Shown here piece by piece: positions 2,506 to 26,292 of a DNA stretch of 64,000 bases. The notes below the pieces were generated by a model that saw only the letters and a list, made by a program, of their open reading frames with translations, did not search any database and was not told the origin of the DNA. Origin of the DNA: Lachnospiraceae bacterium (GTDB lineage: Bacteria; Bacillota; Clostridia; Lachnospirales; Lachnospiraceae); assembly GCA_016287675.1 (NCBI GenBank), contig JAEFAR010000004.1, forward strand, positions 1 through 64,000, given 5' to 3'. Within the stretch, counting starts at the first letter, position 1, and each line of letters opens with the position of its first letter. Position numbers and translations under genes: made by a program.

Positions 2506-2632
2506 TAATCCGGATTTATTTGTACAACTTTTGTAGGACATTGTGTCTTATACTTTGTCAAAAAAGTAAAGAAGTACAGATCCGGAAACAAAAACGACTG
2601 ACAGTTTTTTGCTTCCGAAAGGAGACGATGAA

Positions 2633-5574: not shown

Positions 5575-5975
5575 ATTTTTTGCACCTTTCTGAAAAATTT
5601 TGAGTTTTTGGAAATTGAAACACGATTTTTTGTGCAAAATATCAAAACAAGAACATGATATATCTGCAAGAATCAAATATAGAATAACATAAAAGCTAAA
5701 TTTTAACAAGTATATTTAGGTAAAATTTTCGGATTTAGCGACTAATTTAATTTGATTAAGCGGGAAAAAAGAAGCATGATTTGAGCGGTATGCACAATTA
5801 TGATGAATAATTTTTGTGCAATAGTTACAAAATTGAATGATTAAACAAGAAAGCAATATGAGAATCAATAATATGTGATGATTAAATTTTTGATGCGGAT
5901 ATAATATTGGTATATTCAGAAATGGGCATAGGGTGTTTGGGTAAAAAACAGATTGTTGATTCGGGAGAGTAAAAA
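5575..5975. promoter_or_regulatory. Divergent regulatory region of the mannan operon
   Basis: This is 401 bases of A/T-rich sequence with no gene. A -10 box TATAAT (5900-5905) lacks a good -35, as expected for an activated promoter. The motif TTGTGCA occurs at 5630-5636 and 5814-5820, and its inverse TGCACAA at 5791-5797. The last two form a dyad (5791-5820, 7-bp arms, 16-nt spacer) about 80 bases upstream of the -10, a plausible regulator site. Confidence 0.6.
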
Positions 5976-8317: not shown

Positions 8318-8338
8318 CAGTTTTAAAGGAATTTGAAA

Positions 8339-9985
8339 ATGCGAAAAACGATCCTGAAAATCTCATTAACGGCTGCAGCTGTTGCGATGTTTGCGGCAGC
8401 GGGATGTCAGAGCACAAACTCGACACCGCCTGTTGTGACTGCAACGCCCACTCCCACTTCCATAAAGGAAGTTTCAACTGCTCCGACAGTGACTGTCACG
8501 CCTTCGAAGCAAATTAATCCAACTTTGAAGGTGACACCCACCCCCGCGAAGAAGGTCACATCAACTCCGCAAGTGACACCCACTCCGTTCGTCAGTGAGA
8601 AGGTGGGAAGATTCGAGGCGGAAAAGGGTGAGTTTTCCGGAAAGGTGCACAAAGTGACAGCCAAGGCAAATGCAGGATTTTCCGAAAATGCCTATGTGGA
8701 GGGATTTGAGGGAGACAACGACTCCTGTACATTTGTGGCGGAGATCCCGGAGGAAGGCTTTTACGACCTGACCTTTCGCTTACGGGGTATCGGAGGCGAA
8801 AAGATCAATTTTGTGAGCGTGGATGACGAATACGTTGGAGATATTGGGATAAAGGACACCAACCTGGGTGATGCCGTGATCTCAAGGATCTTTCTTTCAA
8901 AAGGAACCCACAGGATAAAAGTGTACAAATCATGGGGCTGGATCAGTCTTGATTATATGGATATCAGTACTTCAAAGCCCATTGGGAATGAATTTTATAT
9001 GGTCTCAAAAGAATTGTGTAACAAAAAAGCGTCGGAAAGCACAAAAAGACTGTTCAGCTTTCTGGTTGACATTTACGGCAATAAGATCCTTTCAGGACAG
9101 GTTTGTGATAAAGGTGAACTGGGCGGAGAGATCCAGGTTATCAAAAACACCACCGGGAAGCTTCCGGCAGTTCTTTCCATGGATCTTATGGAATACACGT
9201 CTTCCCGTCCGGACGGCGGCAAAAAAGGTATGACCATAACTTATGCCAAAAATTGGGCAAAAAACGGAGGCATACTTGAATTCCACTGGCATTGGACTTT
9301 AGGGAAGGATTATGTTAAAGGAAACTGGTATTCTTCCTTTTACACCGATTCCACTACCTTTGACCTGACAAAGGCTTTGAACGGTACAGACAAAAAAGGC
9401 TATGAGATGCTCATGACGGACATGAGAAACATGGCAGAGATCCTTAGGGAACTCAAACAGGCAGACATTCCGATCCTTTTCAGACCGTTGCATGAGGCGG
9501 CGGGAGGCTGGTTCTGGTGGGGAGCCTCAGGTGCGGAAAGCTACAAAAAACTGTACAGGATGATGTATGACATGTACACCGAAGAGTACGGTCTCGACAA
9601 TCTTATCTGGATCTGGAACGGTCAGGACCGGGATTGGTACCCCGGAGATGCCTATTGCGACATTCTGGGAATGGACATCTATCCCGGAGAAAGGGTTTAC
9701 ACATCACAGGCTTCAAAATTCTTTGAAACTGCCGGCTGGTCAGAGGCAAAAAAACCTGTTTACCTCTCGGAATGCGGTTGCATCTTCGACCCCGATCTGG
9801 CAGTCAGGGACGGAGCTGTGTGGGGTGAGTTCTGCGTCTGGCAGGGCGAATTTGTCAAAAAAGGAAATTACAACAGATTGTCCGAGCAATATACTGAAGA
9901 ATATATGATGAAGAAGGCATATGAAAGCGAGACTGTTCTCACTCTCGACGAACTGCCGGATCTCAAATCTTATCCAATGGAGTAG
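8339..9985 (+). CDS. Secreted endo-beta-1,4-mannanase lipoprotein, CBM35-like + GH26
   Basis: This is the extracellular enzyme that starts mannan breakdown. Counting from the ATG at 8339: a lipoprotein signal with lipobox AAGC (Cys23), a Thr/Pro-rich linker (about 30-85), a CBM35-like beta-sandwich (about 88-210, FEAEKGEFSG to GWISLDYMDI), then the GH26 catalytic barrel (about 218-530). The acid/base is Glu386 in RPLHEAAGGWFWWG and the nucleophile Glu478 in PVYLSECG. AAAGGA lies 8 nt before this ATG; a TTG two codons earlier is the alternative start. It should be anchored on the outer face of the membrane. It is the only recognisable endo-acting mannanase in the locus. Confidence 0.95.
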   Translation: MRKTILKISLTAAAVAMFAAAGCQSTNSTPPVVTATPTPTSIKEVSTAPTVTVTPSKQINPTLKVTPTPAKKVTSTPQVTPTPFVSEKVGRFEAEKGEFSGKVHKVTAKANAGFSENAYVEGFEGDNDSCTFVAEIPEEGFYDLTFRLRGIGGEKINFVSVDDEYVGDIGIKDTNLGDAVISRIFLSKGTHRIKVYKSWGWISLDYMDISTSKPIGNEFYMVSKELCNKKASESTKRLFSFLVDIYGNKILSGQVCDKGELGGEIQVIKNTTGKLPAVLSMDLMEYTSSRPDGGKKGMTITYAKNWAKNGGILEFHWHWTLGKDYVKGNWYSSFYTDSTTFDLTKALNGTDKKGYEMLMTDMRNMAEILRELKQADIPILFRPLHEAAGGWFWWGASGAESYKKLYRMMYDMYTEEYGLDNLIWIWNGQDRDWYPGDAYCDILGMDIYPGERVYTSQASKFFETAGWSEAKKPVYLSECGCIFDPDLAVRDGAVWGEFCVWQGEFVKKGNYNRLSEQYTEEYMMKKAYESETVLTLDELPDLKSYPME

Positions 9986-9988
9986 GAA

Positions 9989-12961
9989 ATGAAGAAAACA
10001 TTTGTAAAGAAGTGCATATCCCTGGCTCTCACGGGACTTCTCGTTCTGGGACTCGTCCCGGATGCCGCTGTATTTGCAAAAACCGATCTGACGAGAGAAG
10101 ATTACGACAGACAGGTGGCAACTTACAATATCGGTGACGGTGTCAAGAGCTATCAGGATTACATCGGGGGCTTTTCAAAAGCCTTGCGTCCGGAAAATGT
10201 TGTGACTGCCGGAGCGGATGAACTGGTACGCTACGAAGAAGGAAACGGGGCTGTTGAGCCACAGATACTTACGGATTTTGAAGGCCGAAAGGGAAAAGCT
10301 GTCCTTACTTCAGAGGACAGCCTGGCAGAATTTGAGATCAATATTCCCAAGGCAGGACTTTACAACATGTCTCTGATCTACTACCCGGTAAAGGGCAAGA
10401 GCTCGGACATTCAAAGAAGCATATTTATTGACGGTTCTCTTCCCTTTAAGGAATTCTCCATGGTAACTTTCCCCAGGATCTGGGAAAGCAGGGTGAAGGA
10501 AAGCTTTAAGGATGAAAACGGAGTCACAGTCAAAAAGTGGTCTGCGGACAATCAGGGAAATCAGGAAAAGCCCGAAAGCGCAGAGATTCCTGAGTGGCAG
10601 ACCAGATACACTTACGATTCGGACGGATACATTTCGGAACCGCTGAGTGTTTATCTCACTTCAGGAAAACACACGGTCACCATCGTTTCAGTGCGTGAAC
10701 CCATGCTGATCGGCGGACTTGTTTTTGATAACAGGGGTGAAGCGAGATCATATGCACAGGTTAAAGAAGAATGGGATAAAAAGGGATTTAAGGACACAAC
10801 GGGGCACAGGATCACAATTGAAGGAGAGTACGCAACGAAGACCTCCTCGCAGATGCTTTACCCCCAGCAGGACCAGTCATCCGCTGAAGTAAACCCCTCA
10901 AGTCCCAAAGAACTCCTTAACAATGTGATAGGAGGAAACTCCTGGAGACTGGTGGGACAGTGGATCGAATGGGAATTCGATGTTCCCGAGACAGGTTATT
11001 ACGAGATCTCCTTAAGAGACAAACAGAATTTTTCCAGAGGACTTGAAGTTTCGAGAAGGATCAGTGTGGACGGTGTCGTTCCCTTTGAAGAAATGAACGC
11101 TTACAGCTTCGGTTACTCCCAAAGCTGGCGTATCGACACCATATCGGACGAAAAGGGCGAGCCCTACAGGTTCCTGCTTGAAAAGGGCACCCATACTCTG
11201 CGGATGGAAGTGGTGCTCGGTGATTTTGCACACATTGTCGGACTGGTGCAGGAGGCATTGCAGCAGTTGAATGCCATCTACAGAGAGATAATCAAGATCA
11301 CGGGCGTTTCTCCCGACACCTACAGAGATTACGAGATCGAAGCCTCTCTTACGGATCTTACCGGAGAACTCATTGAAGCAAAGAGGCTTCTGGATGAAGC
11401 CCTTTTGGAACTTGAAAAGGTTGCGGGCAGCAATTCCGATAAGAAGACTGTACTCATCACCATGAGCGATCAGCTGGAAAAGCTGATCAGAGACAATGAT
11501 TATGTCGTAAGAGTACTTGGATCTTTTAAATCAAACATCAGAGCTCTGGGAACCTGGATAACAAATGTTATTTCTCAGCCTCTGGCGGTGGATGCCATTG
11601 TGGTCCATTCCCATGATACCGGTTCAGGCCTTAAGAAAACGGGCTTTTTCAAAAAATTGAGCCATGAAGTCAGAAGACTGTTTTACTCCTTTGTGATTGA
11701 TTACAATCAGATCGGAAATGTCTCGACGGACAAAGATGCAACGACCATCACGCTTTGGATAGGTTCGGGACGTGATCAGGCAAATGTCATAAAGCAGTTG
11801 ATCGACGAGAGTTTTACCCCCAAAAAGGGAGTTTCGGTAAATGTGCAGCTGGTTGACATGAATACGCTTCTTAAAGCTGCATTGGTGGGAGAAGGACCGG
11901 ATGTTGCCATTCAGGTGGCAAGCACCAACACTCCTGCAGGAGTAGTGCTCTACACCGGTAATGACACCCCCGTTAACTATGGTGTCAGAAATGCGGTGCT
12001 GGATCTCACAGCTTTCCCGGATTATAACGATGTGATAAAGAGCTTCCCCGAGGCGGTCACAACACAGTTCGGATACCGGGAGAGCGCATATGCACTGCCT
12101 GAGACCATCACTTTCCCTGTAATGTTCTACAGAAAGGACATCCTCGCGGAGATAGGACTTGATGTTCCTAAGACATGGGATGATGTGAAGGTGGCCATGA
12201 CCGTTCTTGCAAAGAACCAGATGGAATTCGGAATGATGCCCAATGAGCAGCTTTTCGCATCGCTTTTGTTCCAGAATGACGGAAAGTATTACAATGCGAC
12301 TGGTACGGCCTCCGACCTTGATTCGGATACGGCGGTGGAAGTGTTTAAGTTGTTCTGCAACTACTATACGGATTACAAACTGGATCGTGAGACCTCCGTT
12401 CAGGAGCGTTTCCGTACCGGTGAATGTCCCATTATCATCGATGATTACACCACTTACAACAATTTGGCGGTTTCAGCACCCGATATTGCCGGCCTCTGGA
12501 CCTTCACTCAGATACCCGGAACGGTAAAGAAGGACGGGACAGTGGACCACACGGTGGCCTGTACGGGACTTGCCTCCATGATAATGGCGGATACAGATCA
12601 TCCCGATGCCTCATGGGAATTTATAAAATGGTGGACTTCGGCGGAGATACAGACACTTTACGGAAGGGAGATGGAATCCCTCATGGGTTCTTCTGCAAGA
12701 GTTCCCACCGCAAACTATGAAGCCTTCACAAATATGTCCTGGCCTGTTTCGGATTTCAATGCCCTTAAAGCTTCCATGCAATGTGTAAGGGGCATCCCCC
12801 AGGTGCCGGGAGGTTACTATACATGGCGTAACGTAAACAATGCGTTCTATTCGGTGGTGACAAAGAATGACACCTCATCTCCCCGCGAGGAACTGATGGA
12901 TAAGGTCATATACATAAATGCGGAGATCAAATACAAGATGGACGAACTTGGCATAGAGTGA
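9989..12961 (+). CDS. Giant solute-binding protein with N-terminal CBM-like domains
   Basis: A 990-residue exported protein. After a signal peptide (about 1-30) come two jelly-roll modules with the grammar of CBM35/carbohydrate-binding domains (about 65-255 and 272-415, each with a stretch such as GYYEISLRDK and an ISVDG or IFIDG turn), a helical segment (about 416-570), and a family 1 ABC solute-binding domain (about 583-990: TITLWIGSG, YALPETITFPVMFYRKDIL, then WEFIKWWTS near the C-terminus). Usual binding proteins are about 400-550 residues. No lipobox is visible, so its anchor is unclear. It begins 3 nt after the mannanase stop and precedes a permease pair, so it probably delivers mannan fragments. 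The division into two CBMs is inferred from sequence pattern. Confidence 0.85.
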   Translation: MKKTFVKKCISLALTGLLVLGLVPDAAVFAKTDLTREDYDRQVATYNIGDGVKSYQDYIGGFSKALRPENVVTAGADELVRYEEGNGAVEPQILTDFEGRKGKAVLTSEDSLAEFEINIPKAGLYNMSLIYYPVKGKSSDIQRSIFIDGSLPFKEFSMVTFPRIWESRVKESFKDENGVTVKKWSADNQGNQEKPESAEIPEWQTRYTYDSDGYISEPLSVYLTSGKHTVTIVSVREPMLIGGLVFDNRGEARSYAQVKEEWDKKGFKDTTGHRITIEGEYATKTSSQMLYPQQDQSSAEVNPSSPKELLNNVIGGNSWRLVGQWIEWEFDVPETGYYEISLRDKQNFSRGLEVSRRISVDGVVPFEEMNAYSFGYSQSWRIDTISDEKGEPYRFLLEKGTHTLRMEVVLGDFAHIVGLVQEALQQLNAIYREIIKITGVSPDTYRDYEIEASLTDLTGELIEAKRLLDEALLELEKVAGSNSDKKTVLITMSDQLEKLIRDNDYVVRVLGSFKSNIRALGTWITNVISQPLAVDAIVVHSHDTGSGLKKTGFFKKLSHEVRRLFYSFVIDYNQIGNVSTDKDATTITLWIGSGRDQANVIKQLIDESFTPKKGVSVNVQLVDMNTLLKAALVGEGPDVAIQVASTNTPAGVVLYTGNDTPVNYGVRNAVLDLTAFPDYNDVIKSFPEAVTTQFGYRESAYALPETITFPVMFYRKDILAEIGLDVPKTWDDVKVAMTVLAKNQMEFGMMPNEQLFASLLFQNDGKYYNATGTASDLDSDTAVEVFKLFCNYYTDYKLDRETSVQERFRTGECPIIIDDYTTYNNLAVSAPDIAGLWTFTQIPGTVKKDGTVDHTVACTGLASMIMADTDHPDASWEFIKWWTSAEIQTLYGREMESLMGSSARVPTANYEAFTNMSWPVSDFNALKASMQCVRGIPQVPGGYYTWRNVNNAFYSVVTKNDTSSPREELMDKVIYINAEIKYKMDELGIE

Positions 12962-12975
12962 AAGGAGGAAAGCAG

Positions 12976-13929
12976 ATGCGCAATAAAACAACAGACATAA
13001 AAGAAATGACGAATGCGGAAAGCATTGCGGCACGGCAGAACAGGCTTTCCTACAGGATAAAAAAGGAAAGGGCGAGCTATGTCATGCTGGCACCTTATTT
13101 CATCCTTTTTACGTTCTTCACCATTATTCCCGTAGCGATGTCCATCGGACTCAGCTTTACCTACTACAATATGCTTGAAATGCCCCAGTTTGTGGGCTGG
13201 AAAAACTACATAAAACTTTTTCTTGAGGACGATATCTTTTTGATCTCCCTTAAGAACACACTGATCCTTGCGGTGATCACAGGCCCCGTATCCTACATGC
13301 TCTGCCTTCTCTTTGCATGGATCATCAATGAATTCACCGGTTGGCTCAGAGCCTTTCTGACTCTGGTGTTCTACGCACCTTCTATTTGCGGAAATGCCTA
13401 CGTTGTCTGGAATCTTATCCTTTCCGGCGACAGATACGGTTACCTTAACGGTATCCTTTTGAAACTGGGCATACTTGATGAGGCTGTCCAATGGATGAAG
13501 ACGGAAAACTATGTCCTTCCCACCCTTGTGGTCGTACAGCTGTGGCTGTCCCTCGGAACAGGTTTCCTTTCATTTATCGCCGGCCTTCAGACCGTGGATA
13601 AGACTCTGTACGAAGCAGCTGCCCTGGACGGAATAAAGAACCGCTGGCAGGAACTCTGGTATGTGACATTACCCAGCATGAAGCCGCAGCTTCTCTTTGG
13701 TGCCGTAATGCAGATCACATCCTCTTTTGCAATCTGTGATGTTTCGATAGCACTGGCAGGAAATCCTTCCGTGAATTATGCCGGTGCCACCGTTGTCACT
13801 CACCTCTTGGACTACGGTTCCGTGAGATTTGAAATGGGCTACGCTTCGGCGATAGCCACAGTGCTCTTCCTGCTCATGGTGGGCACCAATAAACTTGTTC
13901 AGAGGCTTCTGGGAAGGGTTGGTGCATGA
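12976..13929 (+). CDS. ABC sugar permease, MalF/UgpA type (pair 1)
   Basis: A 317-residue inner-membrane permease of carbohydrate uptake family 1 with six membrane segments (first about 35-58). The cytoplasmic EAA loop reads YEAAALDGIKNRWQELWYVTLP and contacts the ATPase. The start with AAAGGAGG 7 nt upstream is preferred to a GTG six codons earlier that would overlap the ribosome site. It sits 14 nt downstream of the large binding protein and overlaps the next permease gene by 4 nt. No ATPase is encoded nearby, so a shared MsmX/MsmK-like ATPase elsewhere is assumed. Confidence 0.92.
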   Translation: MRNKTTDIKEMTNAESIAARQNRLSYRIKKERASYVMLAPYFILFTFFTIIPVAMSIGLSFTYYNMLEMPQFVGWKNYIKLFLEDDIFLISLKNTLILAVITGPVSYMLCLLFAWIINEFTGWLRAFLTLVFYAPSICGNAYVVWNLILSGDRYGYLNGILLKLGILDEAVQWMKTENYVLPTLVVVQLWLSLGTGFLSFIAGLQTVDKTLYEAAALDGIKNRWQELWYVTLPSMKPQLLFGAVMQITSSFAICDVSIALAGNPSVNYAGATVVTHLLDYGSVRFEMGYASAIATVLFLLMVGTNKLVQRLLGRVGA

Positions 13930-14831
13930 TGGGTAAGAAAATGAGAAAGAAAAAAACGGGGAAGATCCTGGGGATCTTTAAACGCCGTGAAAAGAAATTA
14001 AACCGTTCGGCAGCGGGAAACACCATCCTGTTCATACTCATGACGATCTGCGGTCTGGCCATGATCCTTCCTCTGGTGATGATCGTGAACAACAGCCTGA
14101 AGCCTTTGGATGAGCTGTTCCAGTTCCCGCCGAAGATCTTTGTCAGAAATCCTACATTGGAGAACTTTTCGGACCTTTTTGTTCAGGTCAATGATTCCTG
14201 GGTGCCTTTTTCCAGGTACATCCTTAATACGGTGATCATTACCGGAGGCGGTATGGTGGGGCACGTAGTCATCGCATCCATGGCTGCCTACCCTCTTTCA
14301 AAACATGATTTTCCGGGAAAGAAGATACTCTTTGCATTTGTAGTCATGTCAATGATGTTTTCATGGCAGGTTACTCAGATACCTCAGTACATGATCATTT
14401 CATGGCTTAAGATCAACAACACTTACCTTGCATTGATCCTTCCCGCCTGCTCTTTCGGTATGGGACTTTACCTCATGAAGCAGTTCATGGAGCAGATCCC
14501 GGATTCACTGATCGAAAGTGCGAGACTGGACGGAGCCAGCGAATACAGGACCTTTTGGTCCATAGTGATGCCTAATGTAAAACCTGCATGGCTGACATTG
14601 GCAATCTTCCAGTTCCAGCAGATGTGGGGAAATACGGGAAGCACATTCTTGCGTGATGAGCAGCTTAAACCTCTGCAGTACAGTCTGAACCAGATTGCAG
14701 CCGGCGGAGCGGCAAGAGCCGGAGCCGGAGCGGCAGTGACCTTTATCGTGGCGGCCGTTCCCATCACCTTCTTCCTGATATGTCAGAGAAACGTTTTGGA
14801 AACGATGACAACATCCGGTATGAAAGATTAA
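13926..14831 (+). CDS. ABC sugar permease, MalG/UgpE type (pair 1)
   Basis: A 301-residue partner of the preceding permease. A basic N-terminus is followed by six membrane segments; the EAA loop is IESARLDGASEYRTFWSIVMPNVKP. It overlaps the upstream gene by 4 nt, so the two subunits are translationally coupled. The C-terminal loop contains an Ala/Gly-rich stretch (GGAARAGAGAAVTF) not usual for the family. With its partner it should form the transmembrane channel for a mannan-derived oligosaccharide; the substrate is inferred from neighbours. Confidence 0.92.
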   Translation: MMGKKMRKKKTGKILGIFKRREKKLNRSAAGNTILFILMTICGLAMILPLVMIVNNSLKPLDELFQFPPKIFVRNPTLENFSDLFVQVNDSWVPFSRYILNTVIITGGGMVGHVVIASMAAYPLSKHDFPGKKILFAFVVMSMMFSWQVTQIPQYMIISWLKINNTYLALILPACSFGMGLYLMKQFMEQIPDSLIESARLDGASEYRTFWSIVMPNVKPAWLTLAIFQFQQMWGNTGSTFLRDEQLKPLQYSLNQIAAGGAARAGAGAAVTFIVAAVPITFFLICQRNVLETMTTSGMKD

Positions 14832-14864
14832 AGAGATTGCAACGAAGAATCAAAGGAGAAACCT

Positions 14865-16352
14865 ATGAGAAAATTGAATAGACTGGCTCGACCTTTGGCT
14901 GTTCTGGTTGCGGTTCTGATCTTTGCAAACACGGAAACAGTGCATGTGAAAGCCGATGACGTTCCATATGACACTTACAATTATGATTACAGAGAATACA
15001 TTCATTACACTCCGGCGGCTTACGTTCCGGAATCCGTACGTTACGGAAGAGACCTCTTTTACGAAGGGGCTTCCATCGGAGATTTTAAAACACCTCAGGA
15101 CATGTGCAAGTCTCCCACGGGAGAGGTTCTTGTGGCAGACACGGGAAATGACCGCGTTGTCGTGCTGGATGCGAAAATGAAAAAGGTTCTGAGGATCCTC
15201 ACAACCTTTGATAACAACGGAAAACAGGATAAGCTGGGAAAACCCTACGGTGTCTGTGTTTCGGAAAAAGGAAATGTTTATATCGCGGATTCCAAAAACA
15301 AAAGGGTACTGGTCTTTGATCCGGATTACAATTTAAAGCAGATCGTGTCCGAACCCAGATCCAGATCCCTTGACGCAGGTTTCGTGTTTACACCCTACAA
15401 GGTCGCGGTAGACTATGCGGACAGGATCTACGTCATTGCCCAGAATATGTTTGAAGGTATAATGGTATTTGAGACCGACGGACAGTTTACCGGATTCTTC
15501 GGCACCATTTCCGTTGACATATCACTCTGGGAAAAATTCTGGAGAAGGATAGCGACAAAGGAGGAAAGAGCAAATCAGAAGCTTTTCATTCCTACGGAAT
15601 TTACGGGTATCGATGTTGATCCGGAGGGCTTTATATATGCCACCAACATCACCACTGACGGTATCCAGGGAGTCAGGAGGCTGAATCCCAGCGGACAGGA
15701 TGTTATCAAAAAGGGCGAGAACGGAAACCTCGGAGGAGATCTTCAGATCAGCGGAACCGGAAGCTATTACGGTCCTTCACAATTTACCGATGTTGTTTAC
15801 AGAAAGAACGGCATCTATTCCTGCCTTGACAGGAAAAGAGGCAGGATCTTTACCTACGATCATGAAGGAAACCTGCTTTACATCTTCGGAGGACTCGGAA
15901 CTCAGGTGGGAACCTTTCAGATGCCTGTAGCCATAGAAGAATTCGGAAATTCCTTAAGTGTACTTGACGCCACTCTGGGAACAATAATCACCTTCAACGT
16001 GACTGAGTACGGCAACTGCATAAATGAAGCAGTCGGACTCAGATTTGACGGAGATGAGACTCAGGCAGTACAGATCTGGCAAAGAGTGCTGGAGCTGGAT
16101 GAAAACAACGAGCTGGCCAATACCGGTATCGGTAAGGCCTACCTCTCTGCGGGAGAGTACAAAAAAGCAATGAAGTATCTTGAACTGGGGATGAATCGGG
16201 ACTATTACTCCATAGCCTACAAGAGATACAGAAACGAGGTACTGAAGCAGAATGCCAGCTGGTTCCTTTCGGGAGTTCTGGTGTTGATAGTTGCTGCAGT
16301 TGTCTATAAAAACAGAAGAAAAGAAAGGAGGGAGAAGATTAATGCTGACTAA
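14865..16352 (+). CDS. Membrane-anchored extracellular NHL-repeat/TPR protein
   Basis: A 495-residue protein with a signal peptide (about 1-30), an NHL-type beta-propeller (about 60-375; recurring GEVLVADTGNDRVVVLD and GNVYIADSKNKRVLVFD blades), a TPR-like helical stretch (about 395-465, LANTGIGKAYLSAGEYKKAMKYLE), and one C-terminal membrane helix (about 472-488) followed by a Lys/Arg-rich tail. The propeller should therefore face outward. Propellers of this class bind proteins or glycans and no catalytic motif is visible. It is located between permease pair 1 and the Yip1-like gene; its last 4 codons overlap the next start. Its role is unknown; a scaffold for the transporter is an inference. 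Confidence 0.8.
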   Translation: MRKLNRLARPLAVLVAVLIFANTETVHVKADDVPYDTYNYDYREYIHYTPAAYVPESVRYGRDLFYEGASIGDFKTPQDMCKSPTGEVLVADTGNDRVVVLDAKMKKVLRILTTFDNNGKQDKLGKPYGVCVSEKGNVYIADSKNKRVLVFDPDYNLKQIVSEPRSRSLDAGFVFTPYKVAVDYADRIYVIAQNMFEGIMVFETDGQFTGFFGTISVDISLWEKFWRRIATKEERANQKLFIPTEFTGIDVDPEGFIYATNITTDGIQGVRRLNPSGQDVIKKGENGNLGGDLQISGTGSYYGPSQFTDVVYRKNGIYSCLDRKRGRIFTYDHEGNLLYIFGGLGTQVGTFQMPVAIEEFGNSLSVLDATLGTIITFNVTEYGNCINEAVGLRFDGDETQAVQIWQRVLELDENNELANTGIGKAYLSAGEYKKAMKYLELGMNRDYYSIAYKRYRNEVLKQNASWFLSGVLVLIVAAVVYKNRRKERREKINAD

Positions 16353-16977
16353 AGCCTTTTCGAAAGAAAAATGGAAGTATCTTCTCTACACCCTTTCTCA
16401 TCCCGTTGACGGATTTTACTGGATACGTCACAGCGAAAAAGGAAGCCTTCCCATAGCTTTTATACTTGTGCTACTTTTCAGCGCTTCATTTTCTGCAAAC
16501 CGTCTTCTTGCGGGGTTTGTTGTAAATGACATAGATCCCCGGACTGTGGATTCGCTCTATGAATTCATCGGAGTCTTGGCATTTTACATACTCCTGTGTG
16601 TCAGCAACTGGTCAGTGACCTGTCTGACAGGCGGGGAAGGAAGGATGAAGGACATCCTGACTGCCGTTGGCTACGGAACTATGCCCATCACTATCGGGCT
16701 GGTGCTGTCAACTGTTGTGAGCCGTTTTGTTGCAGATGAGGAGCAGGCTTTCTATTCCATTATCCTTGGGGTGTGCGTTGCCTGGGGCATTATCATGATC
16801 ATCATAGGAATAATGCAGATACACAATTTCTCTGCAGGGAAAACCCTGGTGACATTGATCCTTACTTTTGCGGCCATGCTGATCATTGTTTTCATTCTGT
16901 TGCTTCTGTCAAATTTGATCGGTAAAGTTTACAACTTCTTCAGAAGCATATATACGGAAATAATTTTCAGAACATAA
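16342..16977 (+). CDS. Yip1-family integral membrane protein
   Basis: A 211-residue protein with about five hydrophobic helices and a short cytoplasmic N-terminus containing the family-like stretch HPVDGFYWIRHSEKGS, which matches the start of bacterial YIP1-domain proteins. The ATG at 16342 with GGAGGGAGAAG upstream is chosen; it overlaps the NHL gene by 11 nt. A TTG-initiated extension of 17 codons has no ribosome site. Bacterial Yip1-domain proteins lack an established biochemical role. Its tight coupling to the NHL and DUF5696-like genes suggests that the three products work as a membrane assembly. Confidence 0.78.
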   Translation: MLTKAFSKEKWKYLLYTLSHPVDGFYWIRHSEKGSLPIAFILVLLFSASFSANRLLAGFVVNDIDPRTVDSLYEFIGVLAFYILLCVSNWSVTCLTGGEGRMKDILTAVGYGTMPITIGLVLSTVVSRFVADEEQAFYSIILGVCVAWGIIMIIIGIMQIHNFSAGKTLVTLILTFAAMLIIVFILLLLSNLIGKVYNFFRSIYTEIIFRT

Positions 16978-16987
16978 GGAGAATGAC

Positions 16988-19348
16988 ATGGATAAGAAAA
17001 AAGAAAAAAGTGTCAGACTCCCTATGAGTCCGGCAAAAAAAATAATGCTGGGAGTTGTACTGATCGCTGCTGCCATTGCCCTGATCTACCTGGTTTATTA
17101 TCTGATCAGGTTCAAGGCATACAACGGAAACAGAAAATACATGACAACCTATGAGTATGAACAGGGTACTGAGCTTGAATTCCTTAAGGAAGCAAAGTCT
17201 GATGTGCCCGGGTTCAAACTGGTGGCGGAAAATGAGACACTCAAGCTTTACACCGACACCGCAACCTGTAATGTGGCAATTTTTGACAAGAGAAACGGTT
17301 CCGTGTCCTACACCAATCCTTTGAATGCGGATGCCGATACGGTTGCCAAGGCTGCCAACAAGAATCTTCTTAAATCCCAGTTTGTCCTGTCCTTTTACAA
17401 TACCGCGGTTGCTTCGGCAAACTACGATTCTTACAGTAAAAGCGTAATGTCCCATAACTATAAATGGGAAGGGATAAAGAACGGCATACGGTACGTCTAC
17501 TCCGTTGGAGAACCGCAGAACATCGGCAAGGATGGCATGACTTATTTTGTGGTTCCGCTGGAATACAGGCTTGACGGAGATTCGCTTGTGGTAAACATTC
17601 CCGCTAAGGGAATTGAAGAGCATGGACCGGGGTACATTTACAAGATACAGCTCTTACGTTACATGGGAGCATCAAGCTACGATGATAAGGGCTACATGGT
17701 GGTGCCCAACGGATCAGGTGCGGTCATCAATTTTAACAACGGAAAGAAATCCGCTGCTGCTTACTCTCAATATATTTATGGTATCGATCCAATGGTGGCA
17801 AACTACACCACCCTTGAAGAAAGTGATGATGCAAGACTTCCGATCTTTGCCCTTTGCTACGATGACAGGAGTGTGGCCGGAACGGTGGAAACAGGCGCAA
17901 CGGTTGCAAACATCGCGGCAAATGTGTCGGGAGCCTACAATGATTATAATTTTGTCTATCCCAGTTTTGTCATCCGCAACATTGACAATCTTATGATGTT
18001 CGGTAATGCAAAGACAGACACTTTTGTCATGGAAGAAAATCTGTATGACATCAACATGCAGGTCAGATACTCATTCCTTACTGAAGAATACAAAGGCTAC
18101 TCCGGACTTGCCAACTACTACAGGGAAAAACTGATAAAGGACGGAGTTTTAAGCCGCCTTGACAGATCCGGAAGCATCCCCTTTTACTACGATGTGATCG
18201 CGGGTGTCAAGGAGACGGGACACATTCTCGGAGTCGGATACCTCCATGTATTCAGTATGACGGATTTTGACGAAGCTGAGGAGATCGCCCGTACCCTGGC
18301 GGAAAACGGCGTGACAAATCAGGTCATGAATCTGCAGGGCTGGTTCAACAACGGTTACTATCACGACTCTGCGGACAAGATAAACGTTAACCTTAAACTT
18401 GGAGGCAGATCGGGGCTTAAGAGCCTTAAGGAAACACTTAACGGACTCGGCGGTAAGCTGTACGGAGACGTGTGCTTCCAGAAGGTTTCCTTTGTGGCAA
18501 AGAGATACAATTACAATGCGGAATCATCCCGTTACTACGGAGGCGGCTATGTTGCGGCTTTCGGACAGAACGATCCCACCACTCTCAGAAACACGGCCTC
18601 TCTGGGTTATATGGAGACGAGATACAATCTGATCTCCCCGCGTTTCCTTCCGAGGTACGTGAACAAGTTTGCTTCGAAGGTTACAAAGGTTGCCCTTGAC
18701 GGATTGTCCTTAAGAGACCTCGGAAACACATTGCAGTCCGATAAGAAGAGGACAAACGTGATAGACAGAGATCAGGCGCTGAACGTGGTCCTGGGACAGC
18801 TGGAAACCCTTAAAGATACGGGAAAGAAACTGCTTCTTGACAGCGCGAACGCCTATGCCTTCGGGTACACCGAAGACATAATAAATGTTCCGACTGACGG
18901 AAACGAGTTTTTTATCTGTGACGGTTCCATACCGCTTTATCAGATGATCATCCACGGGTGTATCGATTACTCATCCAAGCTTCTTAATTATGAGGACAGC
19001 AATCGTGAAAGAGAAAGACTTCTGGAACTCATCGAAACCGGAACTGCTCCTCATTACCAGTTTACAAAAGAGGAAGCCAGCAGGATGAAGAATACGGGAC
19101 TTAACCGCTTCTATGCCACCACCTTTGACAACTATATGCAGGAGGCACTGGATGCGTACGATTACGTTAACGGAGCTCTGAAGCAGGTGGAAGGAGCCAT
19201 GATGATCGGTCACAGAAGCGAAGGAAGCTTACGGGCTGTGAATTACGATAACGGAGTTACGATCTACATTAATTACGGAGAAGATGATACGGTAATGGAC
19301 GGCATCGTGATACCCGCAAAAGATTACAGAACGGAGGGAGACAGATGA
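16988..19348 (+). CDS. DUF5696-like membrane-anchored large extracellular protein
   Basis: A 786-residue protein with a single N-terminal membrane helix (about 15-37) after a basic segment, so most of it should lie outside the membrane. The beta-rich region about 60-350 contains NETLKLYTDTATCNVAIFD and a GYMVVPNGSGAVINF segment; about 390-680 alternates strand and helix like a TIM barrel; the end (VTIYINYGED) resembles a C-terminal beta domain of glycosidases. I recognise the family as DUF5696 from general resemblance and co-occurrence with Yip1 and SBP genes, not from a search. Whether it is an enzyme is unknown; no proven catalytic pair can be assigned. It overlaps the next permease gene by 4 nt. 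Confidence 0.7.
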   Translation: MDKKKEKSVRLPMSPAKKIMLGVVLIAAAIALIYLVYYLIRFKAYNGNRKYMTTYEYEQGTELEFLKEAKSDVPGFKLVAENETLKLYTDTATCNVAIFDKRNGSVSYTNPLNADADTVAKAANKNLLKSQFVLSFYNTAVASANYDSYSKSVMSHNYKWEGIKNGIRYVYSVGEPQNIGKDGMTYFVVPLEYRLDGDSLVVNIPAKGIEEHGPGYIYKIQLLRYMGASSYDDKGYMVVPNGSGAVINFNNGKKSAAAYSQYIYGIDPMVANYTTLEESDDARLPIFALCYDDRSVAGTVETGATVANIAANVSGAYNDYNFVYPSFVIRNIDNLMMFGNAKTDTFVMEENLYDINMQVRYSFLTEEYKGYSGLANYYREKLIKDGVLSRLDRSGSIPFYYDVIAGVKETGHILGVGYLHVFSMTDFDEAEEIARTLAENGVTNQVMNLQGWFNNGYYHDSADKINVNLKLGGRSGLKSLKETLNGLGGKLYGDVCFQKVSFVAKRYNYNAESSRYYGGGYVAAFGQNDPTTLRNTASLGYMETRYNLISPRFLPRYVNKFASKVTKVALDGLSLRDLGNTLQSDKKRTNVIDRDQALNVVLGQLETLKDTGKKLLLDSANAYAFGYTEDIINVPTDGNEFFICDGSIPLYQMIIHGCIDYSSKLLNYEDSNRERERLLELIETGTAPHYQFTKEEASRMKNTGLNRFYATTFDNYMQEALDAYDYVNGALKQVEGAMMIGHRSEGSLRAVNYDNGVTIYINYGEDDTVMDGIVIPAKDYRTEGDR

Positions 19349-20271
19349 ATAAGAAAAAAACAAGATTGTCCCTCTCTCAAAAACGAATGATCATGGGTTA
19401 CATCTTCATTTTGCCATGGTTCATCGGATTCCTTCTGTTTTATGTGAGATCCATCTTTATGACCGGACAGTTCAGCCTTGCAAAGCTTACTGTAAACGCA
19501 AATGTGGGAGGTTACACGCTGGAATTCCTTGGGTTTAAGAATTTTGTCTTTGCCTTCAGGGAACACGGTTCTTTCAAACAGGTGCTGACCACATCAGTGA
19601 TCAACATGCTGGTGGATGTCCCTCTTGTGACATTTTTCAGCCTTTTCATGGCCATTCTTTTAAACAAAAAGTTTCCGGGGAGAGCTTTTTTCAGAGCTGT
19701 GTTTTTCCTTCCGGTAATCCTTAATTCGGGAGCGATCTCAGCCATGATGGATCTTGCGGAAACCATGATGAACGGTGGTATTTCGGCCACTGCATCGGAA
19801 GTGGCGACCGGAGACACCTCCAATATAGCGTTTAACATTGATTATCTCGTGAACATGTTCATGAATCTTGGACTTCCCTCAAGCATACTGGGCTATCTGT
19901 CATCTGCAGTCGGAAGGATCAATGACATAATCAAGGCCTCCGGGGTTCAGATCATCATCTTCATTGCAGCGCTCCAATCCATACCATCCTCTATGTATGA
20001 GGTGGCAAAGATAGAAGGCGCAACTGCCTACGAAACATTCTGGAAAGTAACCTTCCCTATGGTGATGCCTCACATCATCACGAATGTTGTTTACACGATA
20101 GTAGACAGTTTTACAAACAGTGAAGTTGTTGACCTGGCCTACAAAACGGCCTTTACCGATCACAATTACGGCGTGAGTGCCGTCTTTTCCATCGTGAGCA
20201 CGGTAGTCACCTGCGCGATACTTGTCATTGTGGTCACTTTGATACAAAAACGTACATTCTATTATAATTAA
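19345..20271 (+). CDS. ABC sugar permease, MalF type (pair 2)
   Basis: A 308-residue membrane protein with six predicted helices and an EAA loop reading YEVAKIEGATAYETFWKVTFPMVMP. It is preceded by GGAGGG and overlaps the DUF5696-like gene by 4 nt, so both are probably translated together. A longer-than-usual loop after the third helix (MMNGGISATASEVATGDTSN) is Ala/Thr-rich. It forms a second heterodimeric permease with the following gene, in addition to the pair at 12976-14831, which is unusual for a single oligosaccharide locus. Confidence 0.9.
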   Translation: MNKKKTRLSLSQKRMIMGYIFILPWFIGFLLFYVRSIFMTGQFSLAKLTVNANVGGYTLEFLGFKNFVFAFREHGSFKQVLTTSVINMLVDVPLVTFFSLFMAILLNKKFPGRAFFRAVFFLPVILNSGAISAMMDLAETMMNGGISATASEVATGDTSNIAFNIDYLVNMFMNLGLPSSILGYLSSAVGRINDIIKASGVQIIIFIAALQSIPSSMYEVAKIEGATAYETFWKVTFPMVMPHIITNVVYTIVDSFTNSEVVDLAYKTAFTDHNYGVSAVFSIVSTVVTCAILVIVVTLIQKRTFYYN

Positions 20272-20282
20272 GGAGGGTTGAA

Positions 20283-21266
20283 ATGAAGAAAGAAGCCAAG
20301 ATTCTTCTGGATAAGACCAAAAGAACTCTGAACGACCCTCTTAAAATGAGGATTGCGGGAAATGAGATAAAAAATGTGCTTATGACCGTGTTCAAGTACG
20401 TGATACTGATCGGAGTAAGCTACGTTATCATAGCTCCGGTCATAGGCATGTTCGTCAATTCCATAAAGTCGGATGCGGATGCTTTTAACCCTATGGTTTT
20501 CGTACTTCCGCAACATCCCACTCTTGAAAAGTACAAGCTGGCGATCCTGAGGCTTGACTATTGGAAGACAGCTGCGAAAAGCATAGGTTACACTGCCGGT
20601 CTCACGGTGGTACAGCTTCTGGTATGTTCCATGGTGGGTTATGGATTTGCCAGGTTTGATTTTCCTTTTAAAAAGCTCCTTTTCGGATGCGTGGTCGTTA
20701 CGATCATAATACCGTCGCACACGGTCATGCTTCCGCTTTACATGACCTTCAGGTCCATAGATCCTTTCGGTATCGGTAAATTACTCACCGGAACGCCGGG
20801 ACTCAACGGAACTGTGATACCCATGTACATTATGACGCTACTGGGTTGTGGCCTGAGGTCGGGATTGTTTATCTACATCTTCAACCAGTTTTTCAGAGGT
20901 CTTCCCAAGGAGATCGAAGAAGCTGCGTTTGTGGATGGAGCCGGAATGTTTTACACATACATGCGTATCATGCTTGTGAATGCAATGCCGGCTGTCATTA
21001 CTGTCACTGTTTTCTCCATAGTATGGCAGTTTAATGATGTATTCTTTGCGAAGTTGTTTCTGATACCGGATAGTACGGCCATCAGTAAGAGAATAGCAAG
21101 CCTTCAGGGCATAATCGCCAACGAGGACCAGATCCTGTCGCTGACTCTCCAGGAACTCTACCGCGATGCCGGAGCCTTGCTTGTTATCACTCCTGTGGCA
21201 ATTATCTATCTGATCCTTCAGAAAAACTTTATAGAAGGTGTCGAGCGGAGCGGTATCGTAGGATGA
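20283..21266 (+). CDS. ABC sugar permease, MalG type (pair 2)
   Basis: A 327-residue permease with a basic N-terminal extension (about 1-30) and six membrane segments. The EAA loop is EEAAFVDGAGMFYTYMRIMLVNAMP, in which the usual terminal LP is replaced. It starts 11 nt after its partner with AGGAGGG as ribosome site. It probably pairs with 19345-20271 and the binding protein at 23644; the assignment of binding proteins to permease pairs is inferred from gene order only. Confidence 0.9.
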   Translation: MKKEAKILLDKTKRTLNDPLKMRIAGNEIKNVLMTVFKYVILIGVSYVIIAPVIGMFVNSIKSDADAFNPMVFVLPQHPTLEKYKLAILRLDYWKTAAKSIGYTAGLTVVQLLVCSMVGYGFARFDFPFKKLLFGCVVVTIIIPSHTVMLPLYMTFRSIDPFGIGKLLTGTPGLNGTVIPMYIMTLLGCGLRSGLFIYIFNQFFRGLPKEIEEAAFVDGAGMFYTYMRIMLVNAMPAVITVTVFSIVWQFNDVFFAKLFLIPDSTAISKRIASLQGIIANEDQILSLTLQELYRDAGALLVITPVAIIYLILQKNFIEGVERSGIVG

Positions 21267-21311
21267 TGCCCCGCCCTACACTCTAACTTACAATTAAGGA
21301 GGAAGAAAAAA

Positions 21312-23627
21312 GTGAAGAAATGTTTTTTGGCCCTTTTAATGTCCGCTGTAATGGTTCTTTCCGTTACGGCATGCGGCCAGGGGAATGAAGCCGAGAGTAC
21401 TCCCGTGCAGGTCACAGCGACACCTACACCCGTACCTGCTACTCCCACACCTACATCCAAACCCACGCCTGTACCGGCGATTGAGGGCGGAGCAGCCAGT
21501 GTGGATTTTGAAGACGGCAATCTGGGGTTTGTTACCATCACACAGCCTACCATCAATTCCGACAACAGCAAGCTTTCCGTTGAGGAGATCAATGGATCCA
21601 AAGTTCTTGTTGTAAAGAATAATCTCGGAAAGAAAGAGGCTTATCTCGGAATCGATCTTTCCGCTATGTTGGGAGATAAGATCGCGGATGTCGCAAAAGT
21701 AAAGTTTGATATCGCAGATCAGGGCGGAGAAAAGTTCAGCCCCATTTCCGGAAAATTATATGCATACACCGGAGAAGGCGCTGCTAATAAGGAAGATCTC
21801 GGTAAATGGTCGGTTTATCTTGAGAATAAGAGTCCTAAGACTGTGACCTTCGACATCTCGAATCCGTTTACTGCCGGAGAGAACAACTACATTATCATCA
21901 GTAAAGAGGATGAAGTTGATGCAAATCACGGTTTCTGGGTAGATAACATCAAGTTCCTCGATAAAAACGGAAACCTCATTAAAGCCGATACCACAGCACT
22001 CGTTGCCGAAAACTCACCTCTTAATGCGGTTACAGAAAAAAAGACATTTGTTCTCGGCAGAACAACAAAGGTTGAATCAACCTATGCGGGTGACTGGTCA
22101 AGCACCAAGGCAATCCCTGCTGCTTATTTTGCAGATGTCAAGGAAGGTGAAACAGTCAACGTTGTAGTAGACATCACTCTTCAGGACGGCCTTGATTATT
22201 ATCTTGCAAAGCCCATGACAGCATCCTGGGGAACATTTGAAAACGAAAGATACACAGATCTTGTTGCAGCATCGGCAGGAGATTATTTCCACCTTCAGTC
22301 CGACGGCTTCATCGTTATCGATGACAGAGCACTTGATCAGATCTGCTTCACACTTGATTCTACAGCAGCGGCAGCGGCTGCGGCAAACGGCGGTCTTGCA
22401 TTCCAGACCTACGGCGTAACTGCTCTTTCTGCTACAGTGAGCAAGAACGTTTTCAGGACAAAGGTTGAAGCAACCTATGCAGGCGACTGGTCAAGCACCA
22501 AAGCGATCCCCGCTGCTTACTTTGCAAATGTGGCTGACGGTGAGACTGTTAACGTAACAGTAGACATCACTCTTCAGGACGGCCTTGATTATTATCTTGC
22601 AAAGCCCATGACAGCATCCTGGGGAACATTTGAAAACGAAAGATATGCAGATCTTGTTGCAGCATCGGAAGGAGATTATTATCACCTTCAGTCCGATGGC
22701 TTCATCGTTATCGATGATAAGGCTCTGGACCGCATCAGTTTCACACTTGATTCTACAGCAGCCGCTGCGGTTGCAGCAAACGGCGGTCTTGCATTCCAGA
22801 CCTACGGCGTAACGGCTCTTGCCGCAACAGTAAGTAAGGATGTACGCCAGACAAAGGTTGAAGCAACCTATGCAGGCGACTGGTCAAGCACCAAAGCAAT
22901 CCCCGCTGCTTATTTCGCAAATGTTGCTGATGGTGAAACAGTAAACGTAACAGTTGATATCACTCTTCAGGACGGCCTTGATTATTATCTTGCAAAGCCT
23001 ATGACAGCATCCTGGGGAACATTTGAGAATGAAAGATACACAGATCTTGTTGCAGCATCGGAAGGAGATTATTTCCATCTTCAGTCCGACGGCTTCATCG
23101 TAATCGATGACAGAGCTCTTGATCGCATCAGCTTCACGCTTGATTCGACAGCTGCTGCGGCAGTTGCGGCAAACGGCGGTCTTGCATTCCAGACTTACGG
23201 TGTAACCGCTCTTTCAGCAACCGTAAGCAAGAGCCTTAAGCAGACAAAGGTTGAAGCAACCTATGCAGGCGACTGGTCAAGCACTAAGGCTATCCCCGCT
23301 GCTTACTTCGCAGATGTGGCTGACGGTGAAACAGTAAATGTTACGGTAGACATCACTCTTCAGGATGGCCTTGATTATTATCTTGCAAAGCCTATGACAG
23401 CATCCTGGGGAACATTTGAAAATGAAAGATATGCAGATCTTGTTGCGGCATCGGCAGGAGATTATTATCACCTTCAGTCCGACGGCTTCATCGTAATCGA
23501 TGACAAGGCTCTGGATCGTCTCAGCTTCACCCTTGACTCTGCAGCGGCAGCAGCCATTGCAGCAAACGGAGGCCTTGCATTCCAGACCTACGGCGTAACG
23601 GTTCTTTCCGTAGTAGTTTCCAAGTAG
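21312..23627 (+). CDS. Lipoprotein with four tandem 131-residue carbohydrate-binding-like modules
   Basis: A 771-residue exported lipoprotein starting at GTG with AAGGAGGAAG upstream. The lipobox is VTAC (Cys21), followed by a Thr/Pro linker (about 30-55), one beta-sandwich domain (about 58-235, VDFEDGNLGFVTITQ to HGFWVDNIKFLD), then four near-identical modules from residue about 252 to the end. Each module begins TKVEATYAGDWSSTKAIPAAYF and contains YYLAKPMTASWGTFENERY and LQSDGFIVIDD, with several Trp/Tyr residues suited to sugar stacking. I do not recognise the module as a named family. Its location between permease pair 2 and a binding protein points to glycan capture at the cell surface. 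The function is inferred. Confidence 0.85.
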   Translation: MKKCFLALLMSAVMVLSVTACGQGNEAESTPVQVTATPTPVPATPTPTSKPTPVPAIEGGAASVDFEDGNLGFVTITQPTINSDNSKLSVEEINGSKVLVVKNNLGKKEAYLGIDLSAMLGDKIADVAKVKFDIADQGGEKFSPISGKLYAYTGEGAANKEDLGKWSVYLENKSPKTVTFDISNPFTAGENNYIIISKEDEVDANHGFWVDNIKFLDKNGNLIKADTTALVAENSPLNAVTEKKTFVLGRTTKVESTYAGDWSSTKAIPAAYFADVKEGETVNVVVDITLQDGLDYYLAKPMTASWGTFENERYTDLVAASAGDYFHLQSDGFIVIDDRALDQICFTLDSTAAAAAAANGGLAFQTYGVTALSATVSKNVFRTKVEATYAGDWSSTKAIPAAYFANVADGETVNVTVDITLQDGLDYYLAKPMTASWGTFENERYADLVAASEGDYYHLQSDGFIVIDDKALDRISFTLDSTAAAAVAANGGLAFQTYGVTALAATVSKDVRQTKVEATYAGDWSSTKAIPAAYFANVADGETVNVTVDITLQDGLDYYLAKPMTASWGTFENERYTDLVAASEGDYFHLQSDGFIVIDDRALDRISFTLDSTAAAAVAANGGLAFQTYGVTALSATVSKSLKQTKVEATYAGDWSSTKAIPAAYFADVADGETVNVTVDITLQDGLDYYLAKPMTASWGTFENERYADLVAASAGDYYHLQSDGFIVIDDKALDRLSFTLDSAAAAAIAANGGLAFQTYGVTVLSVVVSK
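22065..23627 (+). repeat. Four tandem 393-bp coding repeats
   Basis: Units start at 22065, 22458, 22851 and 23244 (anchor ACAAAGGTTGAA), exactly 393 bases apart; the last is cut by the stop codon after 384 bases. Long internal stretches are identical between units, for example around 22183-22253 and its copies. This shows recent duplication or continuing gene conversion, and copy number is expected to vary between strains. Confidence 0.95.
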
Positions 23628-23643
23628 TTTGAGGAGGATCATA

Positions 23644-25143
23644 ATGAGATTAGTTAAGAAAATCATGGCCGCTGCACTTTCATGCACAATGGTGCTCGGC
23701 GTTGCGGCATGCGGAGCAAAGGAAACCGTAGAGCCTCAGACCGTTGTTGTAAGTAACGGTGACGCAGCTGCACAGGCTCCTGATACATACAAGAGAAGAA
23801 CAAATGATATCCACATCGGCACATGGTGGGTTCAGCACTATGACAGTGCGGATACAGACCTTTCCGACAGCGCCGACTGGGCAGTAAACCAGGATAAGGA
23901 AGGCGATGATGAGGCTACAAAGGCAGCAAATGCTGTTAACCGTCATCAGCTTGAAGAGAGATTCAAGAATGTAAAGACCATCGAGAACAAGTACGGTGTT
24001 AAATTCTTCTGGCAGAACCTGACCTATGCGGGCGTTCAGGAGTCCATCAACACCTCCATCCTTGCCGGAGCACCCGACTGCGACATCTATCTCACAGACG
24101 CAGGCATGGCTATTCCCGCTCAGAGCAACGGCTTTACCTTCGATTTAAAGACCATCCTTCCCGCAGATCACGATCTCTTCACAGATCAGGTCGTAATGAA
24201 GTACCTTGATCTCGGAGACGGAAAGGCAAGCATACTCATCCGTCAGGGTGGTATGCAGAACACACACCCTCTTGCATTCAACAAGCAGCTCCTTGAAGAA
24301 TACAACCTTGAGTCCCCTGCAGACCTTTGGGAAAAGGGCGAATGGACATGGGACAAGTTCAATGAGTATATGCAGGTTCTCACACAGGATACCGACGGCG
24401 ACGGACAGATCGATCAGTACGGCTATTGCGGATGGGATACAGACCTTCTTGAAGAACTCATGCTCTCCAACGGCGCAAACATTGCTTCAACAACGAAAGA
24501 GCAGCTTTCATCCTCCAAGATGACAGAAGTCCTTCAGCAGATCTACAACATGTACAATGTTGACAATGTATGCTTCCCTGTAACCAATGACATGGACTCC
24601 AATGATGTGCGCCTTAAGTACAGAAACGGTAACATCGCGTTCTGGATGGGCGATGTTTGGCTGAACCAGCAGAACGGTTCCGACTACGACTGGGAAGGAA
24701 CACTTGGTTACACACTTCCTTTCGACATCATCTACACACACTGGCCTGTAGGACCTTCAGGAAACCAGGAAACCGATCCCATGCTCAACAACGTTGGTGG
24801 AGAGCTTTACATCATTCCCGCAGGTGTTGAGGATCCTCTTACCGTGTTCAACGTTCTTTACGATCTTTGGAACTGGTATGACGGAGACACAGCTCAGCGT
24901 GATGATCCCGCAACCTTGAACTGGTGGATCAATGCTACGGGAAAGACAGATGAGATCCGTCAGTTCAACTTTAAGACACAGCAGGAGATCATGGCCAAAA
25001 CAACAGTTGACCTTTGGAATTCCATGGGCGTTAACTACGATCTTTGGTCTTTGATGAACGGTACGGTTACACCCGCACAGTTCCAGGAAATGCACAAGCA
25101 GGAAGTTCAGGACGCTCTTGACTCCACTCTTGGCACAAAATAA
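23644..25143 (+). CDS. ABC family 1 solute-binding lipoprotein
   Basis: A 499-residue binding protein for carbohydrate uptake. The start at 23644 has GAGGAGG 7 nt upstream. The lipobox is VAAC (Cys22). The mature domain begins around IHIGTWWVQHYDSAD and carries an EF-hand-like DTDGDGQIDQYG loop often seen in this family, and many aromatic residues (WEKGEWTWDKF) typical of oligosaccharide sites. It lies 16 nt after the repeat lipoprotein and 20 nt before the mannooligosaccharide phosphorylase, so it probably binds mannooligosaccharides. It is the second binding protein of the locus and much more conventional than the one at 9989. Confidence 0.92.
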   Translation: MRLVKKIMAAALSCTMVLGVAACGAKETVEPQTVVVSNGDAAAQAPDTYKRRTNDIHIGTWWVQHYDSADTDLSDSADWAVNQDKEGDDEATKAANAVNRHQLEERFKNVKTIENKYGVKFFWQNLTYAGVQESINTSILAGAPDCDIYLTDAGMAIPAQSNGFTFDLKTILPADHDLFTDQVVMKYLDLGDGKASILIRQGGMQNTHPLAFNKQLLEEYNLESPADLWEKGEWTWDKFNEYMQVLTQDTDGDGQIDQYGYCGWDTDLLEELMLSNGANIASTTKEQLSSSKMTEVLQQIYNMYNVDNVCFPVTNDMDSNDVRLKYRNGNIAFWMGDVWLNQQNGSDYDWEGTLGYTLPFDIIYTHWPVGPSGNQETDPMLNNVGGELYIIPAGVEDPLTVFNVLYDLWNWYDGDTAQRDDPATLNWWINATGKTDEIRQFNFKTQQEIMAKTTVDLWNSMGVNYDLWSLMNGTVTPAQFQEMHKQEVQDALDSTLGTK

Positions 25144-26245: not shown

Positions 26246-26292
26246 AATTAACCGTATCACATTTGAGACTTAAAAATGAGGAGACGAGAGAA

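Follow-up and report, generated by a model that had tools for sequence, protein, structure and literature searches.

The mannan importer RiMnBP-RiMPP1-RiMPP2, from the MULL locus of Roseburia intestinalis, consists of one binding protein and two permeases (PMC6385246), as an earlier note on the DNA studied here had stated. According to two further reports (PMC4887032, PMC4338810), YknW of Bacillus, a membrane protein of the Yip1 family, is encoded with the ATP-binding cassette (ABC) transporter YknXYZ and modulates its assembly; it is the single bacterial precedent that we came across of an ABC transporter with a Yip1 subunit. Here, we analyzed a window of 64,000 nucleotides from a Lachnospiraceae bacterium (GenBank assembly GCA_016287675.1, contig JAEFAR010000004.1, positions 1 to 64,000 of the forward strand), in which a cassette of ten genes at 9989-25143 encodes two pairs of sugar permeases and two solute-binding proteins (SBPs) together with an NHL beta-propeller protein, a YIP1 membrane protein and a DUF5696 protein. 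The locus resembles that of Roseburia in having a CUT1 importer, a GH26 enzyme outside the cell, and GH130 enzymes and an epimerase inside. It differs in that the Roseburia importer has a single SBP with two permeases, and the text of that paper (PMC6385246) names no Yip1 or NHL protein. YknWXYZ is an exporter; it includes a membrane fusion protein and an ATPase of its own and has no NHL, DUF5696 or binding proteins; we found no YknX-type membrane fusion protein and no MacB-like permease with ATPase among the cassette proteins. A literature search, which left subscription papers and preprints outside its coverage, returned no mention of DUF5696, PF18952 or the gene set, in agreement with the earlier description of the assembly as undescribed. 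The cassette, carried by gut and soil Firmicutes, appears to be a carbohydrate ABC importer with undescribed accessory subunits. As a unit it has apparently not been described before, and it probably encodes a single import machine, some parts of which had lacked an explanation.

As the earlier note had listed them, all ten open reading frames (ORFs) and their domains were found on the + strand when the window was checked with Pfam. In order, they encode SBP* (9989-12961; SBP_bac_8 at residues 642-890), the UgpA/MalF-type permease A1 (12958-13929; BPD_transp_1 and UgpA-type matches), whose gene overlaps that of SBP* by 4 nt, the UgpE/MalG-type permease B1 (13926-14831; BPD_transp_1, UgpE/GlcU-type), the NHL beta-propeller protein with tetratricopeptide repeats (TPR) (14865-16352; NHL, TPR_19), the YIP1 protein with 4-5 transmembrane helices (TMs) (16342-16977; Yip1, E 1e-16), the DUF5696 protein (16988-19348; PF18952, E 9e-182), permease A2 directly 3' of it (19345-20271; BPD_transp_1), permease B2 (20283-21266; BPD_transp_1), a repeat lipoprotein (21312-23627) and the lipoprotein SBP2 (23629-25143), the last recognized through its match to AbnE. 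The start of YIP1 is most likely the ATG at 16342, not the TTG at 16291. The start of SBP2 is more likely the ATG at 23644, because a normal lipobox signal peptide then results. The nine junctions measure -4, -4, +33, -11, +10, -4, +11, +45 and +1 nt, so that four neighbors overlap, by 4, 4, 11 and 4 nt, and the gaps between the others span 1-45 nt. Adjacent genes had been said to overlap or touch at 4 to 14 nt, which is roughly right, but only for the tight junctions.

We then compared 122 loci, namely 42 diverse ones (the window and 41 further DUF5696 neighborhoods) and 80 from named genome records. DUF5696 was the sole criterion for the diverse loci, and the named-record loci were picked for their similarity to the window, so that the set of 42 is the fairer test. 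DUF5696 genes were located with PF18952, and the ORFs of each neighborhood were scored against the window proteins; the named records were queried with 12 closer sequences, and the 37 divergent sequences shared no conserved stretch. The gene order NHL-YIP1-DUF5696-permeaseA2-permeaseB2 was kept in the 122 loci wherever the contig permits. The YIP1 domain lies directly upstream of DUF5696 except in 2 loci that end at a contig edge, as a separate gene in 95 loci and as the C-terminal part of a fused NHL-YIP1 ORF in 22; in 3 loci the DUF5696 ORF was automatically called too long and overlaps YIP1. Permease A2 follows DUF5696 directly in 117 of the 122, with 4 loci stopping at a contig edge and one (L061) in which A2 is overlapped by an over-long ORF call and B2 is in place. 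An SBP2-type protein was present in 97 loci. With 122 recurrences, chance is far from explaining this arrangement.

Reciprocal profile searches of 398 genomes of the phylum placed DUF5696 above the family cut-off in 39 and near full-length in 37. The full-length NHL partner (>370 bits) and full-length DUF5696 were found in the identical 37 genomes, and none of the 398 has one of the two complete and the other missing. All other NHL proteins scored at most 89 bits, save one contig-end fragment of 209 bits in genome G243. Under independence, the chance of such identical sets is about 1e-52, a figure to be read as 'not chance', as genomes are not independent. The co-occurrence check that had been proposed for Yip1, DUF5696 and NHL with sugar ABC genes came out positive: the three adjoin such genes throughout the sampled loci, one to one by genome. 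At least 580 stretches in named genomes encode a relative. Among the carriers are Lachnospiraceae, Oscillospiraceae and Thermoanaerobacterium, and their sources include the gut and the rumen. In Thermoanaerobacterium butyriciformans DSM 101588 (locus L147), a cassette stands by a GH26 gene. The closest relatives of the window gene are mostly from assembled Lachnospiraceae genomes, many of gut or rumen origin.

These findings bear on another explanation, a co-regulated operon for two separate CUT1 importers, with DUF5696 as a surface glycosidase that works independently and NHL and YIP1 as an envelope pair unrelated to it, all serving one pathway but never forming a complex. Operon neighbors in carbohydrate loci are often independent, DUF5696 has a glycosidase fold, and the SBP*-permA1-permB1 block, usually upstream of the other genes, moves relative to them, being downstream at L054, L057, L059 and L067 and sometimes elsewhere. 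Yet the order is near-invariant across diverse genomes and glycan contexts while the enzymes change, NHL and YIP1 can be fused, and no sampled genome has one of NHL and DUF5696 complete while lacking the other. We therefore consider such a loose collection fairly unlikely.

Gene-tree distances were correlated among all eight genes (r 0.64-0.91 in the 27 loci holding all eight), and for most gene pairs in the full locus set the correlation was above all 999 permutations. In an initial run permA1 and permB1 were weakly correlated with the rest, because other permeases had been picked up in loci without SBP*; this weakness was gone in loci with all eight genes. Distances between paralogous cassettes within one genome were also correlated (r 0.88-0.95; 29 pairs, seven genomes). 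As the compared cassettes share one genome, this correlation is free of species history, and it follows that cassettes duplicate and diverge, or get exchanged, as wholes. NHL, YIP1 and DUF5696 form an evolutionary unit with A2-B2, and usually also with SBP*-A1-B1. Full-length SBP* was found in 11 of 11 searched genomes with DUF5696 and in 0 of 3 without, with six copies in the window's genome. The invariant core is NHL-YIP1-DUF5696-permA2-permB2 and has one permease pair; the two pairs on which the earlier note had built are usual, side by side, and not universal.

A multi-module surface lipoprotein had also been counted as part of the assembly. This protein (21312-23627) has a lipobox, an N-terminal module and four tandem repeats of 131 residues (393-nt spacing, 87-90% identical), and its repeat units had no Pfam match. 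It is present at 38 of the 54 loci that have mannan enzymes, against 2 of the 33 that lack them (Fisher p 1.5e-9, inflated by relatedness). We therefore rejected it as a core part, its distribution being restricted largely to mannan-enzyme loci. Similar lipoproteins accompany mannan-type cassettes in dozens of Lachnospiraceae, and the repeats are possibly a new family of mannan-binding modules.

The window's genome (G000; 2.66 Mb, 90 contigs) carries six cassettes, on contigs C66, C69, C35, C56, C79 and C89. They are divergent, with NHL-YIP1 fused in two and split in four. Four of the five other cassettes lie beside GH31, a PL11-type rhamnogalacturonan lyase or GH35 with GH30, or with AraC/LacI regulators. 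Within this one genome, the glycans addressed by enzymes close to a cassette include, besides others, mannan, galactan and rhamnogalacturonan. In the diverse genomes, the neighbors included GH3, GH26, GH42, GH95, alginate lyase, GH10, pectate lyase, GH43 and chondroitinase-B-type enzymes. As cassettes stand beside enzymes for many glycans, the machine is not mannan-specific, and the tie to mannan drawn in the earlier note was given up. It serves as a general platform that is adapted to one glycan or another.

The same neighbors speak to another possibility, that the cassette serves envelope glycan turnover or export and that polysaccharide enzymes are nearby by accident. In its favor, the Yip1 precedent YknW belongs to an exporter. 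However, the cassette encodes two binding proteins, its permeases are of the importer type and have EAA-like motifs, and many loci adjoin genes for degradative enzymes and sugar-type regulators. These features oppose the explanation, and we regard it as highly improbable. Among the neighbors of diverse cassettes, one protein matches LptF/LptG and one Omp85, a hint of an outer membrane in some carriers.

The NHL protein begins with a signal peptide and carries a single TM near its C terminus (463-481). In fused NHL-YIP1 forms this TM is retained and is followed by a charged linker and then by the YIP1 bundle. Because of the signal peptide and the C-terminal TM, kept in the fusions, the propeller and TPR should lie outside and YIP1 in the membrane, as judged from hydropathy. 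Alignment of the YIP1 region showed a conserved N-W-x-x-T-T-L-x-D-G-E-G motif and invariant G98, G100, P115, H161 and E206. By analogy, the window YIP1 may do the same job as YknW.

DUF5696 matched PF18952 over nearly its full length (606 bits, profile positions 10-612). Its AlphaFold2 (AF2) model (pLDDT 87.9, pTM 0.87) gave an N-terminal TM anchor (15-50), a beta-sandwich, a (beta/alpha)8 barrel and a C-terminal beta domain. The top structural match was the GH129-like 3,6-anhydro-D-galactosidase DagB (5opq; Foldseek E 1e-31; VIA Z 31, root-mean-square deviation 4.4, 577 residues aligned). GH129 NagBb came next (5wzr; Foldseek E 1.5e-27), and then GH101 (Z ~20) and GH36. A sequence profile of DUF5696 also matched DagB (E 1e-13) and NagBb (E 2e-8), which indicates homology beyond a common barrel. 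DUF5696 shares the three-part fold with these two enzymes. It differs from them in lying below Pfam GH129 detection, in lacking the residues of the NagBb quadruple mutant, and in being membrane-anchored and permease-linked. PF11308 (Glyco_hydro_129) did not match DUF5696 at E 0.1, and it matched none of 249 genomes of the phylum in a search without a positive-control match. DagB was itself left out of GH129 by its authors, with only Asp435/Asp486 in common (PMC5698469), and DUF5696 is more distant from GH129 than DagB. The profile alignment to NagBb and DagB stops before the catalytic Asp435 (Asp486 in DagB) and the general acid. DagB homologues, sought on plasmids for mapping catalytic residues, were not found there. 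In the barrel, W452, D585, R594, N621, Y623, D645, N667 and E683 are conserved among 121 DUF5696 sequences, and D585 and D645 are candidate catalytic acids. DUF5696 is thus predicted to be a membrane-tethered, outward-facing protein with a GH129-like glycosidase fold. It may be a hydrolase that uses a chemistry of its own, or its barrel may only bind.

A binding-only barrel would suit a different scheme, in which DUF5696 and NHL would bind glycan as receptors without catalysis, and NHL-YIP1 would be a gate or sensor in place of a scaffold, letting the permeases work only with polymer bound. It would account for the conservation of W452, R594, N621 and N667 without a fully invariant barrel acid and for the replacement of the NagBb quadruple-mutant residues, and a TM-linked propeller suits signal transfer. 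However, D585 and D645 are present in >93% of the sequences and intact in the window, and the closest folds are active glycosidases, which makes this scheme decidedly unlikely in our judgment.

The cassette has the traits of a CUT1 importer, with UgpA/UgpE-type binding-protein-dependent permeases and an extracytoplasmic sugar-binding protein. SBP* is secreted; it starts with two beta-sandwich modules, followed by a helical bundle, and ends in an MBP-like binding domain. In its AF2 model (pLDDT 75), the C-terminal half has the MBP fold. Its best sequence match in the PDB was the mannan-oligosaccharide binding protein MBP1 (4r9f, E 1e-8). Caldanaerobius MBP1/CpMnBP1 (4r9f, 4r9g), the closest solved sequence to the SBP* binding domain, is an ordinary chain of 447 residues, whereas SBP* adds ~570 residues in the form of the N-terminal modules and helical bundle. 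SBP2 had no Pfam match above cut-off and was closest by sequence to the arabino-oligosaccharide binding protein AbnE (6rjy, E 7e-8). A conservation map of permease A2 revealed a poorly conserved, variable insert of ~60-70 residues after TM3 (residues ~136-195). This loop is a candidate for the docking of a partner. We considered a single mixed channel of both pairs and did not adopt it, since every permease shows an EAA-like motif of its own and a separate likely binding protein goes with each pair. No ATPase gene was found in the cassette, and three UgpC/MsmK-type ATPases above the equivalog cut-off are encoded on another contig of the window's genome. An ATPase encoded away from the permeases is usual for CUT1 importers of Firmicutes. 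From domains and topology, we infer that both pairs work as CUT1-type importers and draw on a common UgpC/MsmK-type ATPase whose gene lies elsewhere. Ordinary CUT1 permeases almost surely carry out the translocation.

Taking these results together, we favor, at slightly better than even confidence, a conserved glycan-import cassette in which NHL-YIP1 keeps DUF5696 and both SBPs close to the permeases and DUF5696 acts on the fragments. In the window, surface GH26 would cut mannan, and SBP*, SBP2 and the repeat lipoprotein would capture the fragments. Tethered DUF5696 would trim or position them, with NHL-YIP1 as an assembly subunit for this placement, in the way that YknW serves the exporter YknXYZ. 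The fragments would then enter through A1-B1 and A2-B2, and cytosolic GH130 enzymes and the epimerase would degrade them. A stronger form is that NHL-YIP1, DUF5696, SBP*, SBP2 and the two permease pairs are one stable envelope complex, a Gram-positive polysaccharide-processing importer whose tethered glycosidase hands fragments directly to the translocators. It would be like the SusCD-type capture and import of Bacteroidota in principle, but made from ABC parts, and we put it forward tentatively, as possible though not probable.

Several points weigh against the favored reading. The contacts among the cassette proteins, the scaffold and polymer holding that the earlier note had proposed, catalysis by DUF5696, the direction of transport and the division of labor are all things that we infer, and a single regulated pathway with no complex would also account for the strong co-occurrence. 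YknW is part of an exporter, and its likeness to the window YIP1 is an analogy by family. Some loci retain just one adjacent permease pair. No barrel acid of DUF5696 is fully invariant (D585 in 116 and D645 in 113 of 121 sequences), and those residues of the NagBb quadruple mutant that fall within the alignment are not kept. They include the positions of His320 and Asp322, which we take to be metal ligands and at which the DUF5696 consensus is not His or Asp. If the cassette does work as one importer, the textbook picture of a Gram-positive sugar importer, made up of a binding protein, two permeases and an ATPase, lacks parts that a large class of glycan loci would have. The unassigned DUF5696 family would gain a role and bacterial Yip1 and NHL proteins a function, and the gene set would be a genomic marker for complex-glycan uptake loci.

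In the window, the cassette is flanked by same-strand mannan genes. Upstream are an AGE-type epimerase of the cellobiose/mannobiose 2-epimerase type (5976-7145; GlcNAc_2-epim; EpiA-like at 279 bits, below cut-off), a GH130 mannoside phosphorylase (7091-8317; Glyco_hydro_130; start probably 7142) and a CBM35-GH26 surface mannanase (8333-9985; Glyco_hydro_26, E 1.5e-60, and CBM_35). Downstream lie a second GH130 mannoside phosphorylase (25164-26189; Glyco_hydro_130, E 3e-74) and a GDSL/SGNH esterase (26263-27408; Lipase_GDSL_2), from its position a probable mannan deacetylase, with a C-terminal extension of ~150 residues that had no Pfam match. The Firmicutes set for mannan utilization is complete at this locus, with GH26 mannanase, GH130 phosphorylases, epimerase and importer. 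An AraC-family regulator gene (4681-5709, - strand), divergent and just upstream of the epimerase gene, likely controls the mannan locus. Between the mannan locus and a GH36 alpha-galactosidase gene (271-2505), there is a gene (2609-4666) for a methyl-accepting chemotaxis protein that has a dCache sensor domain and may respond to manno-oligosaccharides.

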